A stretch of DNA of 64,000 nt from Bdellovibrio reynosensis (GTDB lineage Bacteria; Bdellovibrionota; Bdellovibrionia; Bdellovibrionales; Bdellovibrionaceae), in assembly GCF_022814725.1 (NCBI RefSeq), contig NZ_CP093442.1, positions 868,001-932,000 on the forward strand, read 5' to 3'. The position numbers were made by a program, and so were the translations under genes. Each line of letters starts with the position of its first letter. Position 1 is the first letter of the stretch. Below the pieces are notes generated by a model that saw only the letters and a list, made by a program, of their open reading frames with translations, searched no databases and was not told where the DNA came from. Positions 2,662 to 57,686 of this stretch are shown here, piece by piece.

Positions 2662-2788
2662 GGGCCGATCAAAAAGGTTCGAGCGCACGGCGGAGGATCT
2701 CGGCTGCAGCGGAGGCGTACCCGTAGGGTACGTTGGAGCGTAAGCCGAGACCGCACAACGCAGTCGATCGGGCCTTTTTCATCGGCCC
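2662..2788. repeat. Three-tier structured intergenic element, copy 1
   Basis: Nested inverted repeats are visible. The outer arms are GGGCCGATCAAAAAGG (2662-2677) and CCTTTTTCATCGGCCC (2773-2788), with one mismatch. The middle arms are TCTCGGCT (2698-2705) and AGCCGAGA (2743-2750). The inner hairpin is CGTACCC (2716-2722) and GGGTACG (2726-2732). A second copy with the same linkers (GGCGGAGGATCT, CGGAGGCGTACC, GACCGCACAACGCAGTC) but different stem bases is at 47651-47777. The right outer arm can instead fold locally (GATCGGGCC 2766-2774 with GGCCCGATC 2784-2792). It lies 11 bp beyond the icmF stop codon. It is either a structured RNA/3' element or a mobile repeat; function unknown. Confidence 0.75.
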
Positions 2789-2798
2789 GATCAGCGCG

Positions 2799-5700
2799 CT
2801 AAAGGTTGCGACGGTATTGGCCACCCACTTCGTACAACGCTTGTGTCATTTGATATAATGAGCAATGCCTTGCCGCAGTCATAAGCGCAGCGAAGATGTT
2901 TCCACCATTCAACACAGTATCTTTTAGCTTTTGAAGTTCACGCTCCCCTTGGGAAGAATGGTCCTTTTGATACTTATGAACGTTATCAAGCTGCGCATTT
3001 TTCTCTTCATAAGAAGCACGGGCTAGCTCAATCTTAGGTGGCACATAGTCCGTAGCCATTGTCTTAGGATCAATGAACGTATTCACACCAATGATCGGCA
3101 AAGTGCCATCGTGTTTAAGTCTTTCATAATATAAAGACTCTTCTTGGATTTTAGAGCGTTGGTATTGAGTTTCCATCGCACCTAAAACACCACCGCGTTC
3201 ATTGATTTTCTTAAACTCATTTAGAACTGCTTCTTCAACTAGATCCGTCAATTCTTCGGTGAAGTAAGAACCCTGCATTGGGTTTTCATTCATCGTCATA
3301 CCGAATTCACGGTTGATGATAAGCTGAATCGCCATGGCACGACGAACCGACTCTTCCGTCGGAGTCGTAATTGCTTCATCATAAGCGTTCGTATGAAGAC
3401 TGTTACAATTATCATAAAGCGCAATCAAAGCCTGCAAAGTCGTTCTGATGTCGTTGAAGTCAATTTCTTGAGCATGCAACGAACGACCTGAAGTCTGAAT
3501 GTGGTATTTCAATTTTTGAGAACGATCGTTACCTTTGTAAAGGTCACGCATTGCCACAGCCCAAATACGGCGGGCCACGCGTCCTAGAACTGAATACTCA
3601 GGATCTAGACCGTTACTAAAGAAGAACGAAAGATTCGGAGCAAAGTCGTCTACTTTTAATCCGCGGGCCAAATAATATTCTACGAAGGTGAAGCCGTTAG
3701 AAAGTGTGAAAGCCAATTGTGATATCGGATTCGCACCCGCTTCTGCAATGTGGTATCCGGAAATAGAAACGGAATAGAAGTTTCTGATTTTGCTGTTAAC
3801 AAAAAACTCTTGAATATCGCCCATCATCTTCAAAGCGAAGTTGATAGAGAAAATACAAGTGTTCTGACCTTGGTCTTCCTTAAGAATGTCAGCTTGAACC
3901 GTCCCGCGCACTTGTTGCAGTGTCCAGTTCGCTGTTGCGGCCCATTCTTCAGGAGATAGCTTACGACCCAGCTCCGCTTCTTTCTTTTCAACTTGCTGAT
4001 CAATGGCCGTGTTGAAGTAAAAAGCTAGAATCATCGGTGCCGGACCGTTGATGGTCATACTGACGGAAGTATTTGGATTGATCAAATCAAAGCCCGCATA
4101 AAGCTTTTTCATATCTTCCAAAGTACAAATACTTACGCCGGACTCACCGACTTTACCGAAGATATCCGGACGCTGATCAGGATCCTGTCCGTACAAAGTC
4201 ACAGAATCAAACGCGGTAGAAAGACGATGCGCGGTTTCACCCTTAGTTAAATAATGGAAACGGCGATTCGTACGTTCAGGGGTGCCTTCACCAGCGAACA
4301 TACGCTTCGGATCTTCATCAGCACGTTTTAATTGGAACACACCCGCCGTGTACGGGAATTCGCCAGGAACGTTTTCTAATTTTAAATATCTAAAGCGATC
4401 ACCCCAGTCTTTAAACTTAGGAACCACCACGCGGCGAATTTTTGTTCCAGACAGTGATTCACGCACCATAGGTTGGCGCAATTCTTTATCACGAACTTTA
4501 AACACCAATTCATCGCCAGAATAAGTTTCAATCAACTTATCAAAACCCTGAAGTTGATCTAATTCATCAGAAGTAAAGTCTGCAGAAAGTTCTGCTTCGA
4601 CTTTTTTAACTGAATCAGCAGGCGCATTTAATAATGGAGCGACCTTTTTAAGCCCCCCCAGTTGCGACGCTTTTTCCGCCAACACCTCTGTACGTTTTTT
4701 ATACTTATGAACCGTATTAACGATTTCAGCTAGATAGTTTTGGCGATCCGCTGGAATGATCACATGCTCTTCAGCCGAAAGAATGTTGGACTTAAAGTGG
4801 GCATCCACTTCCCATTTCTTCGCCTGACGGGTTTCAAGGATGTCGGCAAGCTTAAAGAACAATTTGTTCACGCCGCCATCGTTGAATTGCGAAGCTTGAG
4901 TTAAAAACACAGGAACTTGCGTTTTTTCATCAAAAATTTTGCGCGAGCGTTTGTACTGCTTCGTCACATCTCGAAGAGCATCCAAAGCCCCACGGCGATC
5001 GGCTTTATTGACGGCAATCAAATCCGCAAAGTCGATCATGTCGATTTTTTCTAACTGCGACTGGGCCCCGAAGTCCGAAGTCATAACGTACATAGAAATA
5101 TCACTGACTTCAGTGATGGCCATGTTGCCCTGACCGATACCAGAGGTTTCAGCAATGACGAAATCGAAGTCCAACTGCCGGATGAATTTTAAAATATCCG
5201 GCAATGAAGAGGCGATCTCACGACCTGAACCACGGGACGCGACAGAACGCATGTACACGCGGTTGCGTGACAACGAATTCATACGAATACGGTCACCTAG
5301 CAAAGAACCGCCGGTTTTTCGTTTTGATGGGTCCACGCAGATCACGGCGATCTTTTTATCTGGATAAGCGTTTAAATAACGCTGAACTAGTTCATCGATC
5401 AAAGAGGATTTACCAGCACCACCCGTACCCGTAATACCTAAAACTTGTGGTTCACCCGTCTTTGCTTTGAAAGATTGCAAACCATAGGTTTCTAAAGAAA
5501 TATCTTTTATGCCATTTTCAATAGCACTTAAAGCCACACCCAATTCCACAGAAGGTATGGTGTCGCCAGCAAAGATGTTCTTCTTAGTTTTAAATTCTTT
5601 TTGTTTTTCTAGGATATCAAAGTCACAACCACGGATGATCATTTCGATCATGCCTTCTAACCCCAACTTACGCCCGTCATCCGGGTGAAAGATCTGAGCA

Positions 5701-6041
5701 ATGCCGTAGGCTTCAAGCTCCTTTTTTTCATCGTGGACGATAACGCCGCCACCGCCGCCATAGATGCGCACGTACCCCGCGCCCGCTTCATCAAGAAGGT
5801 CCTTCATGTATTTGAAGTACTCCATGTGGCCGCCCTGATAAGAACTGATGCAGACACCTTGCGCGCCTTCTTGTAAAACGGCTTTCACCACATCACTGAC
5901 CGAGCGATTGTGACCTAGATGAATAACCTCAGCGCCCAGGTCTTGCAAAATTCTGCGCATGATATTGATACTAGCGTCGTGGCCGTCAAAAAGAGCGGCT
6001 GCAGTCACGATACGAATAGGATTCTTTAAAGCATATGCCAT
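2799..6041 (-). CDS. icmF: Fused isobutyryl-CoA mutase IcmF
   Basis: This 1080-residue protein has the full IcmF architecture. An N-terminal B12-binding domain carries D-G-H-D-A-S-I-N near residues 19-26. A MeaI/ArgK-type G-protein chaperone follows, with P-loop G-T-G-G-A-G-K-S at about 205-212 and N-K-A-D further on. The mutase TIM barrel occupies the C-terminal half. IcmF interconverts isobutyryl-CoA and n-butyryl-CoA using adenosylcobalamin. The segment P-Y-T-A-G-V-F has Phe where methylmalonyl-CoA mutases have Tyr (T-M-Y), which supports ICM-type specificity. It is the last gene of the hbd-crt-icmF operon, 6 bp after crt. Length matches the family (about 1090). A pivalyl- or isovaleryl-CoA-acting variant cannot be excluded. 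Confidence 0.93.
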   Translation of the reverse strand: MAYALKNPIRIVTAAALFDGHDASINIMRRILQDLGAEVIHLGHNRSVSDVVKAVLQEGAQGVCISSYQGGHMEYFKYMKDLLDEAGAGYVRIYGGGGGVIVHDEKKELEAYGIAQIFHPDDGRKLGLEGMIEMIIRGCDFDILEKQKEFKTKKNIFAGDTIPSVELGVALSAIENGIKDISLETYGLQSFKAKTGEPQVLGITGTGGAGKSSLIDELVQRYLNAYPDKKIAVICVDPSKRKTGGSLLGDRIRMNSLSRNRVYMRSVASRGSGREIASSLPDILKFIRQLDFDFVIAETSGIGQGNMAITEVSDISMYVMTSDFGAQSQLEKIDMIDFADLIAVNKADRRGALDALRDVTKQYKRSRKIFDEKTQVPVFLTQASQFNDGGVNKLFFKLADILETRQAKKWEVDAHFKSNILSAEEHVIIPADRQNYLAEIVNTVHKYKKRTEVLAEKASQLGGLKKVAPLLNAPADSVKKVEAELSADFTSDELDQLQGFDKLIETYSGDELVFKVRDKELRQPMVRESLSGTKIRRVVVPKFKDWGDRFRYLKLENVPGEFPYTAGVFQLKRADEDPKRMFAGEGTPERTNRRFHYLTKGETAHRLSTAFDSVTLYGQDPDQRPDIFGKVGESGVSICTLEDMKKLYAGFDLINPNTSVSMTINGPAPMILAFYFNTAIDQQVEKKEAELGRKLSPEEWAATANWTLQQVRGTVQADILKEDQGQNTCIFSINFALKMMGDIQEFFVNSKIRNFYSVSISGYHIAEAGANPISQLAFTLSNGFTFVEYYLARGLKVDDFAPNLSFFFSNGLDPEYSVLGRVARRIWAVAMRDLYKGNDRSQKLKYHIQTSGRSLHAQEIDFNDIRTTLQALIALYDNCNSLHTNAYDEAITTPTEESVRRAMAIQLIINREFGMTMNENPMQGSYFTEELTDLVEEAVLNEFKKINERGGVLGAMETQYQRSKIQEESLYYERLKHDGTLPIIGVNTFIDPKTMATDYVPPKIELARASYEEKNAQLDNVHKYQKDHSSQGERELQKLKDTVLNGGNIFAALMTAARHCSLYQMTQALYEVGGQYRRNL

Positions 6042-45878: not shown

Positions 45879-47540
45879 ATGGAAAAAATCTGGCTAAAAA
45901 ACTACCCAAAAGAGGTCTCTGCCACGACAGACCTTTCTAAATACAAGTCGTTGTATGATCTTTACGAAGAATCCGTGCAAATGTTCGGTCCGCGCAAAGC
46001 TTTCACGAATATGGGAGTTTCCTTAACTTTCTCAAAATTAAACGAAGAAGTAGAAAGATTCGCTTCTTTCCTGCAACACGAACTGAAACTAAAAAAAGGC
46101 GATCGCATCGCCATTCAGATGCCAAATCTTTTGCAATTCCCCGTCGTGGCGTTTGCAGCTATGCGCAGCGGTTTAACCATCGTTAATACAAATCCTTTGT
46201 ACACCGCTAAAGAGATGCAGCATCAGTTCAAAGACTCTGGTGCCAAAGCCGTGGTGATTTTAGCTAACTATGCTCATCTACTTGAACAGATCATCAAAGA
46301 CACGGAAATTGAATCCGTTGTGATCACTGAAATCGGTGACCATTTCCCAGCACCAAAAAGATTGTTGGTAAATTCAGTAGTTAAATACATCAAAAAAATG
46401 GTCCCGGCTTATAGCATTCCGCAGGCCTACACGTATTTGCAGGCGATGCAATTAGGCGCGATGAAACCATCACAAAAAATCGAAACCACGCAAGAAGACA
46501 TCGCGTTCCTTCAGTATACAGGGGGCACGACGGGCGTCGCGAAAGGTGCGATGCTTTTACATAAAAACGTTCTTGCTAACGTTTTACAAATTCGCGACTG
46601 GATGAAACCAAAATTGCGCGAAGGCCAAGAAATCGCCATCGCAGCCCTGCCGCTTTATCACATCTTTGCCTTAACATTGAATTGCTTGGGTCTGCTTCGT
46701 TATGGCGCTGAAAACGTTCTGATCACGAATCCAAGAGACATCCCTGGCTTCATCAAAGATCTTAAGAAAACTCCATTCACAGTGATGGCTGGCGTAAACA
46801 CTTTGTTTAACGCTTTGATGAACAATCCAGAATTCACAACCATCGATTTCAGTAAAGTAAAAATCAGCGTTGCCGGCGCAATGACCTTGCAAAAATCCGT
46901 GGCTGAAAAATGGATGACATTAACAAGCTCAACCATCGTTGAAGGTTACGGCTTAACAGAAGCATCACCCGTTGTGTGTTGCAACCCTATCGACGGCACA
47001 GACCGCGTAGGCACCATTGGCCTTCCATTCCCAGATACAGACGTAAAATTAGTTAATGATGATGACCAAGAAGTACCCATGGGCGAACCGGGCGAACTTC
47101 TATGCCAAGGACCGCAAGTCATGGCAGGCTACTGGAACAAACAAGAAGAAACAGACAAAGTTCTAACCAACGGCTGGTTAAGAACCGGCGACATCGCCGT
47201 CGTCGATAAAGATGGATTCTTCAAAATCGTAGACCGCAAAAAAGACATGATCCTAGTATCGGGCTTTAACGTCTATCCAAACGAAGTCGAAGAAGCCATC
47301 GCAAGCCACCCGGGCGTGCTAGAAGTAGCAGCCATCGGCGTACCCGACGAACACAGCGGTGAAATCGTAAAAGCAGTGGTAGTCAAAAAAGACCCAGGTT
47401 TAACTCCTGAAGACGTAATCGCCCACGCAAGAAAAACACTAACAAACTATAAAGTTCCAAAATTAGTAGAATTCAGAACCGAACTACCAAAAACAAACGT
47501 AGGCAAAATCCTAAGAAGAGCCCTAAGAGATCAAAAATAA
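45879..47540 (+). CDS. fadD: Long-chain fatty-acid-CoA ligase FadD
   Basis: The 553-residue ANL-superfamily adenylating enzyme has Y-T-G-G-T-T-G-V-A-K-G-A (P-loop-like AMP motif, about residue 211-222), G-Y-G-L-T-E-A, the hinge R-K-K-D-M-I-L-V-S-G-F-N-V-Y-P-N-E-V-E and the catalytic Lys in T-N-V-G-K-I. It activates fatty acids to acyl-CoA with ATP, feeding fadI-fadJ elsewhere in the window. The length equals typical FadD (about 560). It is monocistronic, with an inverted repeat upstream and a strong terminator. The last 150 codons are noticeably richer in CTA/ATA/AAA than the start, cause unknown. Confidence 0.94.
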   Translation: MEKIWLKNYPKEVSATTDLSKYKSLYDLYEESVQMFGPRKAFTNMGVSLTFSKLNEEVERFASFLQHELKLKKGDRIAIQMPNLLQFPVVAFAAMRSGLTIVNTNPLYTAKEMQHQFKDSGAKAVVILANYAHLLEQIIKDTEIESVVITEIGDHFPAPKRLLVNSVVKYIKKMVPAYSIPQAYTYLQAMQLGAMKPSQKIETTQEDIAFLQYTGGTTGVAKGAMLLHKNVLANVLQIRDWMKPKLREGQEIAIAALPLYHIFALTLNCLGLLRYGAENVLITNPRDIPGFIKDLKKTPFTVMAGVNTLFNALMNNPEFTTIDFSKVKISVAGAMTLQKSVAEKWMTLTSSTIVEGYGLTEASPVVCCNPIDGTDRVGTIGLPFPDTDVKLVNDDDQEVPMGEPGELLCQGPQVMAGYWNKQEETDKVLTNGWLRTGDIAVVDKDGFFKIVDRKKDMILVSGFNVYPNEVEEAIASHPGVLEVAAIGVPDEHSGEIVKAVVVKKDPGLTPEDVIAHARKTLTNYKVPKLVEFRTELPKTNVGKILRRALRDQK

Positions 47541-47617: not shown

Positions 47618-47650
47618 TTTTTTAGCCAAGTAAAACAAAACGAGGACCGA

Positions 47651-47777
47651 GGGTTGGCGAGAAGGGTTCATATGCAAGGCGGAGGATCTTTCGCGAAACG
47701 GAGGCGTACCTGCAAGGTACGTCGCAGTGAAGCGAAAGACCGCACAACGCAGTCAGATGAGCCCTTATCGGCGACCC
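47651..47777. repeat. Three-tier structured intergenic element, copy 2
   Basis: This is the second copy of the 2662-2788 element. The outer arms 47651-47671 and 47757-47777 pair over about 21 positions with two G-U wobbles and two mismatches. The middle stem is TCTTTCGC (47687-47694) with GCGAAAGA (47732-47739). The inner hairpin is CGTACC (47705-47710) with GGTACG (47716-47721). Linkers GGCGGAGGATCT and GACCGCACAACGCAGTC are identical to copy 1, while the stems differ in sequence but keep pairing. It lies between the ends of fadD and the HiPIP gene, touching the HiPIP stop codon. Confidence 0.75.
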
Positions 47778-47778
47778 G

Positions 47779-48156
47779 CTAAGCTTTTTTGTTCCAGCTG
47801 GAGCACCATGCGTCCGCATACACCAATTTACCAGCGAAGATTGTGCAAGTTCCTGCTTCTTTGCCGTTACGAGTTTCTTTTTTCGCATAGAAACTGCAAG
47901 TCAGGCATTTGTTGCCTTTTGAATCGGGCGTCTTCTTGAAGTCCTCAACGTACTTTACAGCCTTCGCTACAGCGTCATTGGGGTCAACCATTGGCATTGC
48001 TCCGCCAGCCGCTGCCGGGGCTGCGCCACGCTTTTTCTGAGCTTCTGCAGTTGAAGTTAAAACAGAATTGATAACCGTAGGTGCGACTACAAATGCGCCC
48101 GCTACCTTAACCAGTGTCGAGAAAAATCCACGACGGTTCATATTAGAATTGTTCAC
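47779..48156 (-). CDS. High-potential iron-sulfur protein (HiPIP)
   Basis: The start is the GTG at 48156: GGAGG lies four bases before it, whereas the ATG nearer the Tat motif is too far from that SD. The 125-residue product has a twin-arginine signal (N-R-R-G-F-F, about residues 7-12), then an Ala/Gly-rich spacer and a C-terminal HiPIP domain with the four cluster cysteines in C-L-T-C, G-T-C-T and D-A-W-C-S. It is a small periplasmic electron carrier holding one [4Fe-4S] cluster. Its length matches the family after the signal is removed. The partner is unknown; the di-haem peroxidase at 60638 is one possibility (inference). Confidence 0.9.
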   Translation of the reverse strand: MNNSNMNRRGFFSTLVKVAGAFVVAPTVINSVLTSTAEAQKKRGAAPAAAGGAMPMVDPNDAVAKAVKYVEDFKKTPDSKGNKCLTCSFYAKKETRNGKEAGTCTIFAGKLVYADAWCSSWNKKA

Positions 48157-48241
48157 GATGCCTCCCATTGAATTTTCAATTAACAATACTATTACCTTTC
48201 ATTTAGTTTTCAATTGGAAAATTTAATCCAACACCCCAAAA

Positions 48242-57455: not shown

Positions 57456-57600
57456 GGCACCATTTCCTCTTCTTTCGCAAGTTCCGCAGCAATGCGCAGC
57501 TAAACGAAGCCAAAGAATACCGACGAACCAGTATAAACCTTAATTAGTACAAATAAAAAAGAGCGAGGACTGTCTGAAGCGAAAGAAGAGGAAATGGTGC
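57456..57600. repeat. 23-bp perfect inverted repeat, one arm inside tRNA-Leu
   Basis: The left arm 57456-57478 and right arm 57578-57600 are exact reverse complements with a 99-base loop. The right arm's last seven bases are the 3' end of the tRNA gene (minus strand reading GGCACCA). On the minus strand the second arm is followed closely by TTTTTTT, so the whole may act as a very long terminator that uses the tRNA 3' end. Confidence 0.75.
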
Positions 57601-57686
57601 CCCGGGCCGGACTTGAACCGGCACGCCCCTGTAAAGGAAGCTCAGGATTTTAAGTCCTGTGCGTCTACCAGTTTCGCCACCGGGGC
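57594..57686 (-). tRNA. tRNA-Leu (anticodon UAA)
   Basis: A 93-nt tRNA on the minus strand with encoded CCA. The 5' acceptor arm is GCCCCGG, the D-arm G-C-G-A-A-A-C-T-G-G-T-A-G-A-C-G-C, the anticodon stem CAGGA/TCCTG with loop CTTAAAA (anticodon TAA), and a long class II variable arm follows. The T-arm is GCCGG-TTCAAGT-CCGGC. By my count the 3' acceptor strand has one G more (CCGGGGGC) than needed to match the 5' strand, giving a bulge; this should be rechecked. Confidence 0.93.

Follow-up and report, generated by a model that had tools for sequence, protein, structure and literature searches.

A dispersed hairpin repeat in Bdellovibrio and other bacteria with a covarying one-strand fold, replication polarity and stop-codon placement

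Two copies of the repeat and their neighborhood

The DNA analyzed here, hereafter the window, is a 64,000-nucleotide stretch of the Bdellovibrio reynosensis chromosome (C1:868001-932000 of the 3,582,323 bp home genome, denoted G000). It contains two copies of a repeat that folds into nested stems (Table 1). We denote as T the strand on which the repeat was originally described, and as B its complement. Both loci lie where the original prediction had placed them, with the linkers and stems it described, and a search of the window with R1, a covariance model based on 23 copies, returned exactly these two. The claim that copy 1 sits 11 bp past icmF is likewise correct: icmF is encoded on the minus strand, co-directional with the replication fork, and its stop codon faces the 3' end of the element, about 11 bp away.

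Table 1. The two copies of the repeat, the structural parts of copy 1 and the adjacent genes (window coordinates)
Feature	Positions	Strand	Evidence or remark
Copy 1 of the repeat (T strand = + strand)	2662..2788	+	R1 match 2660-2783, 129.6 bits; outermost pairs 2662/2788
Copy 1 outer stem, 5' arm; partner 2779-2788	2662..2671	+	helix 1; covarying columns 4-10 with 123-129
Copy 1 second stem, 5' arm; partner 2768-2777	2673..2682	+	columns 14-23 with 110-119
Copy 1 conserved linker GCACGGCGGAGGA	2685..2697	+	near-invariant in copy alignments; family consensus GCAAGGCGGAGGA
Copy 1 middle stem, 5' arm TCTCGGCT; partner 2743-2750	2698..2705	+	helix 2
Copy 1 apical hairpin GGCGTACCC-GTA-GGGTACGTT	2714..2734	+	helix 4, 99.7% paired
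Copy 1 middle stem, 3' arm AGCCGAGA	2743..2750	+	covariation analysis
Copy 1 conserved linker CCGCACAACGCAGTC, core CAACGCAG	2751..2765	+	pattern scan; copy and cross-phylum alignments
Copy 1 second stem, 3' arm	2768..2777	+	covariation analysis
Copy 1 outer stem, 3' arm; partner 2662-2671	2779..2788	+	covariation analysis
icmF, fused isobutyryl-CoA mutase/GTPase	2799..6041	-	NF045497, 1774.5 bits
AMP-binding fatty-acid CoA ligase; convergent, 5' side of copy 2	45879..47540	+	
Copy 2 of the repeat (T strand = + strand)	47651..47777	+	R1 match 47649-47772, 143.0 bits
HiPIP-like gene; stop codon abuts copy 2 3' end	47779..48186	-	PF01355, 61.6 bits

No intrinsic-terminator pattern was found at copy 1 itself, and a terminator reading was dropped on this ground. 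Elsewhere in the window, an exact 23-bp inverted repeat with arms 100 bp apart (57456-57478 / 57579-57601) overlaps the edge of a tRNA gene (57598-57686, minus strand).

A multicopy family in the genus and across phyla

Scanning G000 with a 16-base core pattern gave 28 matches, namely 27 true copies and one coding false match; BLAST recovered 42 pieces, and the R1 model search at least 59 matches. Among the 56 copies put on the replication map of this genome, 54 lie between two called genes. The covariance-model search of Bdellovibrio genomes that had been proposed as a check found copies in 21 of the 24 (1-59 each); three genomes have none and others only 1-5. Few copies were found by the same model in other members of the family and order. 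Full copies are approximately 122-130 nt long. In some places, two or three whole copies follow one another on the same strand as tandem arrays with a spacing of approximately 125-155 bp (G013:C1 685355-685612, 768910-769573, 942354-942600 and 961280-961537; G096:C1 1258518-1258945). Three copies are interrupted by another hairpin element, about 60 bp long (CAAAAATGCC..GGCATTTTTGCGCG..CAGGAGCC..), always inserted within the CCGCACAACGCA linker (L047, ~1595-1660; L056, G000 ~1,700,055-1,700,120; and L026). Palindromes nested in a similar way are present in the cross-phylum copies L159 and L170.

A second model, R2, detected copies in 24 of 38 Desulfuromonadales genomes, with a range from none to at least 93, the latter reached in two genomes. 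Beyond these, a two-gap pattern run over species genomes matched at least 120 stretches in many phyla. The matches listed include Desulfobacterales, Geobacteraceae (contigs L136, L139, L194 and L202), Syntrophaceae, Nitrospirae, Methylomirabilota and Peptococcaceae, as well as Syntrophomonas, Chlamydiae, Myxococcales, Gemmatimonadetes, Binatia and others; because they come mostly from metagenome bins, single odd phyla may represent binning errors. The occurrence of similar GGCGTAC...GTACG hairpins in other proteobacteria, which the original prediction tentatively suggested, is borne out by the scan. Fifty cross-phylum copies align over approximately 124 positions and share the linkers GCAAGGCG, GAGGCGTAC and CAACGC, the first of which is the initial part of the 5' linker of the Bdellovibrio copies. 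Plasmids and phages, searched with one cross-phylum query, gave no match, and none of the Rfam covariance models matched the repeat.

Covariation and the strand that keeps the fold

The folds of both window copies are far more stable than those of dinucleotide shuffles, for RNA (z of -7.4 and -6.4) as well as for DNA. To the 45 aligned G000 copies (44 distinct rows) fits a nested structure of 46 pairs, 93.6% paired, and the column pairs with the highest mutual information are members of this structure. Changes on both sides were found in 31 of the 46 pairs and 312 cells, compared to 23 and 93 in shuffles, and the covariation score was 0.455, whereas shuffles gave 0.175 and slid registers no more than 0.096. 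The shuffles leave the kinship among rows in place, whereas slid registers remove it; for all five covariation measures, the observed value was reached by none of 500 shuffles and exceeded every slid register. In the middle stem (helix 2), nine of ten pairs changed on both sides, and in the second stem, columns 20-113 and 16-117 each display five pair types. Covariation in the repeat family is unambiguously real, and the case of only two copies without significant covariation, on which the original prediction would have fallen, does not apply to this multicopy family.

Palindrome arms can template each other's correction at replication, so covariation is weaker proof of function here than usual. 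Such arm-to-arm correction fails to account for the mismatches, however. On the T strand, the non-Watson-Crick cells comprise 167 G-T and 17 A-C, and counted by pair, G-T is in excess in 23 pairs versus 4 (p 3e-4). Because G-T on T is A-C on the complement, it is on T that the fold has been maintained, whether in RNA or in single-stranded DNA (ssDNA). As DNA, T also folds more stably than B in both window copies (-36.3 v -33.6 kcal/mol in copy 1 and -32.3 v -22.7 kcal/mol in copy 2). In cross-phylum copies, the mismatch asymmetry is 35 to 22 and non-significant. The claim of selection on a folded nucleic acid is strongly supported by the covariation, by the 167:17 ratio and by one compensatory orthologous pair described below.

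Covariation with one strand preferred is expected equally of a structured RNA and of folded ssDNA. Under the former explanation, the T transcript would fold and act in mRNA 3' ends, through stability, termination or shielding of a fork-directed gene from head-on or antisense transcription, and the copies would be kept for that role; both the changes on two sides and the G-U type mismatches tolerated on T alone agree with it. Against it, no gene runs into the element on T in 22 of 54 G000 contexts, so that T would need its own promoter there, and no sigma-70 promoter-like site was found around copy 1. The spread from 0 to 59 copies within one genus and the lack of an Rfam match also count against it.

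The variability of the outer stem bears on a different alternative, that the repeat is a MITE of an insertion sequence with a DDE transposase and terminal inverted repeats. The outer arms are perfect or near-perfect inverted repeats, as this explanation would have them, but they differ wholesale within one genome (GGTTGGCG, GGCGAATC, GGCCGATC), so a single transposase would be unable to recognize them by sequence; what is kept between copies is the pairing, and no conserved terminal inverted repeat was found. Target-site duplications of 2-8 nt did not occur above the level of shuffles. Together with the polarity to the fork described next, these features make a MITE very improbable.

Orientation relative to the replication fork

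In G000, dnaA is located at 2.535 Mb, and the GC skew flips nearby and near 0.71 Mb. With the origin of each closed genome set at dnaA and the terminus at the opposite point, 193 of the 204 copies among the matches listed for six closed Bdellovibrio genomes oppose the fork (p ~4e-44), including, again among the matches listed, all 26 and all 42 copies of two of these genomes. In the opposing orientation, T serves as the template for the leading strand and B as that for the lagging strand. Only 61% of genes are co-directional with the fork. Convergent gene pairs, which balance out gene direction, enclose 23 copies, of which 22 oppose the fork; gene direction alone is therefore insufficient to explain the polarity. 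In the unrelated Desulfuromonadales genome G096, this polarity is shared by 34 of 35 copies when scored by hand against the GC skew, and in this genome, as in the six closed ones, the polarity switches at the origin and the terminus. By the same hand count, only 12 of 20 copies are concordant in another member of this order, G110. On cross-phylum metagenome contigs, 55 of 100 copies agree with the local GC skew, which is weak over 8 kb. Two of the few fork-co-directional copies each have a normal, oppositely oriented copy no more than about 1.3 kb away (G000 834968/836242 and 1158707/1159530).

Polarity of this kind is not a property of RNA. It could instead mark a polar site of chromosome function, read by a nucleoid, segregation or fork-linked factor and comparable to a larger KOPS or Chi, for which a switch at origin and terminus would be natural. 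A chromosome-wide role is hard to reconcile with three genomes of the genus that lack copies and others with 1-5, as well as with the weak polarity in G110, and it leaves the anchoring to stop codons (see below) unaccounted for. We regard such a role as quite improbable.

Alternatively, the polarity could stem from purifying selection rather than from insertion, which would be compatible with mobility: copies with T on the lagging-strand template would be unstable, and those with T on the leading-strand template would persist. The more stable DNA fold of T in both window copies fits this possibility, as does the precedent of sedentary chromosomal integrons, in 25 of 30 of which the recombinogenic attC strand is on the leading-strand template (PMC5371416). 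In copy 1, however, the energy difference between the strands is small, yet the bias is near-total, and here too the stop-codon anchor is left unexplained. As the cause of the polarity, selection of this kind appears somewhat unlikely.

Placement behind stop codons and orthologous sites

Distances to stop codons of open reading frames of at least 70 codons were measured from element ends set by fixed anchors; the group of 'other' copies comprised only eight. Among 36 copies of the genus, the stop codon of such a frame lies 0-6 nt from the element on the B side in 29 and on the T side in two (p 5e-11). In genome G080, a stop codon is found 0-7 nt from the model end in 22 of 28 copies (0-1 nt in 17), and in G000, within 11 nt in 25 of 50, with a mode of 3. 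A stop triplet serving as a plain DNA target word was considered and rejected, because in copies not behind a gene, such triplets occur near the end at the background frequency (8 of 25, background 0.23); hence it is gene ends that matter, not a stop-like DNA word.

Behind some genes, the element follows the stop codon in two to four species. At these orthologous sites the linkers are kept, and the stems are sometimes wholly different yet paired. One orthologous pair, L083/L082, has a single difference inside the element, a compensatory change from C-G to G-C. Where the stems differ wholesale, another copy may have taken the place of the first, the element may have inserted anew, or one arm may have been corrected from the other inside the hairpin.

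Both observations fit a structured RNA: its site and fold would be retained while the stems change, and its placement right behind stop codons resembles that of E. coli REPs, which stall ribosomes when located within 15 nt of a stop codon (PMC12306157). By analogy, a role at mRNA 3' ends may add to the persistence of copies. As the explanation of the family as a whole, a structured RNA nevertheless seems unlikely to us, considering the contexts without a gene reading into T, the uneven copy numbers and the replication polarity.

Relationship to known repeats

The family appears to have been noticed before. In 2009, 24 'predicted short RNA elements' of the Gmet_R1005 family were reported from Geobacter, and noted in G. 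sulfurreducens, G. uraniireducens and Desulfotalea as well (Aklujkar et al. 2009, PMC2700814). Those elements, as presented in the part of that account devoted to them, are intergenic and multicopy like the repeat described here, and seven of our copies contain their central palindrome, GRCGTAGCGCTGCTACGCC, without a single difference on the B strand. The same part of the account mentions neither a test of structure nor a preferred strand and is silent on replication polarity, a stop-codon anchor and any wide distribution, and a literature search for the breadth, strand choice, fork polarity and stop-codon anchor of the family found no report.

Among mobile repeats, the closest resemblance is to REPs and REPINs, which are likewise dispersed, multicopy, intergenic, non-autonomous palindromes, often close behind stop codons, and one clade of RAYT genes adjoins some copies (see below). 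REP super-families consist of 20-40 bp units with a GTAG or CGTC tag (PMC3733652). Unlike these, the present repeat is about 125 bp long and has three conserved linkers, and its home genome contains no RAYT of the adjoining clade; at its ends, no unpaired GTAG or CGTC tag was found, the flanking letters vary, and GGAG is internal only.

Elements of the IS200/IS605 family (IS608, ISDra2) use the lagging-strand template for both excision and insertion, and their orientation follows replication (PMC5371812, PMC6006769). The repeat shares with them the fork-set orientation and the lack of a target duplication, but contains no tnpA, and a fixed short target word 5' of the element was not found in the flanks. 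Furthermore, the active folded strand of IS200/IS605 is the lagging-strand template. In the present repeat that position belongs to B, whereas the strand that keeps the fold is T.

Integron attC sites carry the core words RYYYAAC/GTTRRRY. None were recognized by eye in the repeat, and unlike attC sites, its copies form no cassette array and are placed singly behind many genes.

Search for a mobilizing enzyme

The repeat contains no gene of its own, so copies are non-autonomous. The neighboring genes of cross-phylum copies were compared and none is common to them; a shared neighbor was accordingly dropped as the mobilizer. G000 encodes one Y1 transposase, apart from the copies and flanked by other repeats. 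This only RAYT-like gene of the genome (L029:1138-1815, minus strand, ~1.96 Mb) lies between two flagellin-like genes, is flanked by the inverted repeat GGTGCCTGCTTCTTTTTTGGGTCTACACTGCATC and adjoins a run of GAGTGAT repeats. It belongs to clade B of the two deep RAYT clades, and was rejected as the mobilizer given its own flanking inverted repeat and the lack of an element nearby.

Of the roughly 45 RAYT genes in the genus, seven have an element 43-290 bp downstream, on the same strand and on one side only. All seven belong to clade A, and genomes with a clade A RAYT carry more copies (p 0.014). Judged by shared flanks, the seven cases collapse to about three independent loci, many of these RAYTs have a flanking repeat of their own, GGGTATCGGTCA, and clade A is absent from G000 (at least 59 copies) and from G013 (43 copies). 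We therefore reject the RAYT as a proven mobilizer and treat it as a suspect, the association being only suggestive. Across phyla, 3 of 16 hosts, one of them multicopy, had no Y1 transposase match.

Around the clade A RAYTs of L289, L290, L294, L306, L315 and others, a short repeat, GGGGTATCGGTCA / TGACCGATACCCC, occurs in both orientations and is a candidate REP of its own. L291, L317, L323 and L310 represent one RAYT locus with the same convergent neighbor; three variants of the element are present there in three species, and none in the fourth.

Interpretation

Considering these observations together, we favor, with a probability of roughly 0.58, the interpretation that the repeat is a REP-like mobile hairpin of DNA, approximately 125 bp long, dispersed and non-autonomous. 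The original prediction left the choice between a structured RNA and a mobile hairpin family. The second part fits better, with 0-59 copies per genome, an orientation set by replication and no constant neighbor; the RNA role fits less well. Copies would spread by means of a trans-acting enzyme that handles ssDNA at the fork; the most likely candidate is a RAYT-like Y1/HUH transposase. Insertions would persist chiefly at the ends of genes, a place at which a hairpin directly behind the stop codon may be tolerated or even useful.

Several observations run against mobility. In an IS608-type element that folds on its active strand, the folded strand would be the lagging-strand template, and for T the reverse holds. 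The element occupies orthologous sites in several species, which also fits a kept function; polarity is weak in one Desulfuromonadales genome; and no Y1 match was found in some cross-phylum hosts, nor a clade A RAYT in G000 and G013. The strand paradox has two conceivable exits: copies that place T on the lagging-strand template may be selected against, in parallel to sedentary integrons, or T itself may be taken up into the nascent lagging strand. Since the T sequence is that of the nascent lagging strand, the observed polarity would follow directly from such uptake. A bolder form of the mobile reading, which we consider rather doubtful, is that the family is an ancient cross-phylum class of mobile hairpins distinct from REPs, IS200/IS605 and attC, in which the folded T strand, as DNA or as RNA copied to DNA, moves into the nascent lagging strand by the ends of fork-directed genes.

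The repeat, whose family extends over many phyla, unites three traits that are rarely met together, namely a covarying fold of one strand, near-total fork polarity and placement at stop codons. The 'predicted short RNA elements' of Geobacter become part of a defined family with a searchable model, and the spread of REP-like hairpins, an old question, becomes directly testable in culturable hosts.
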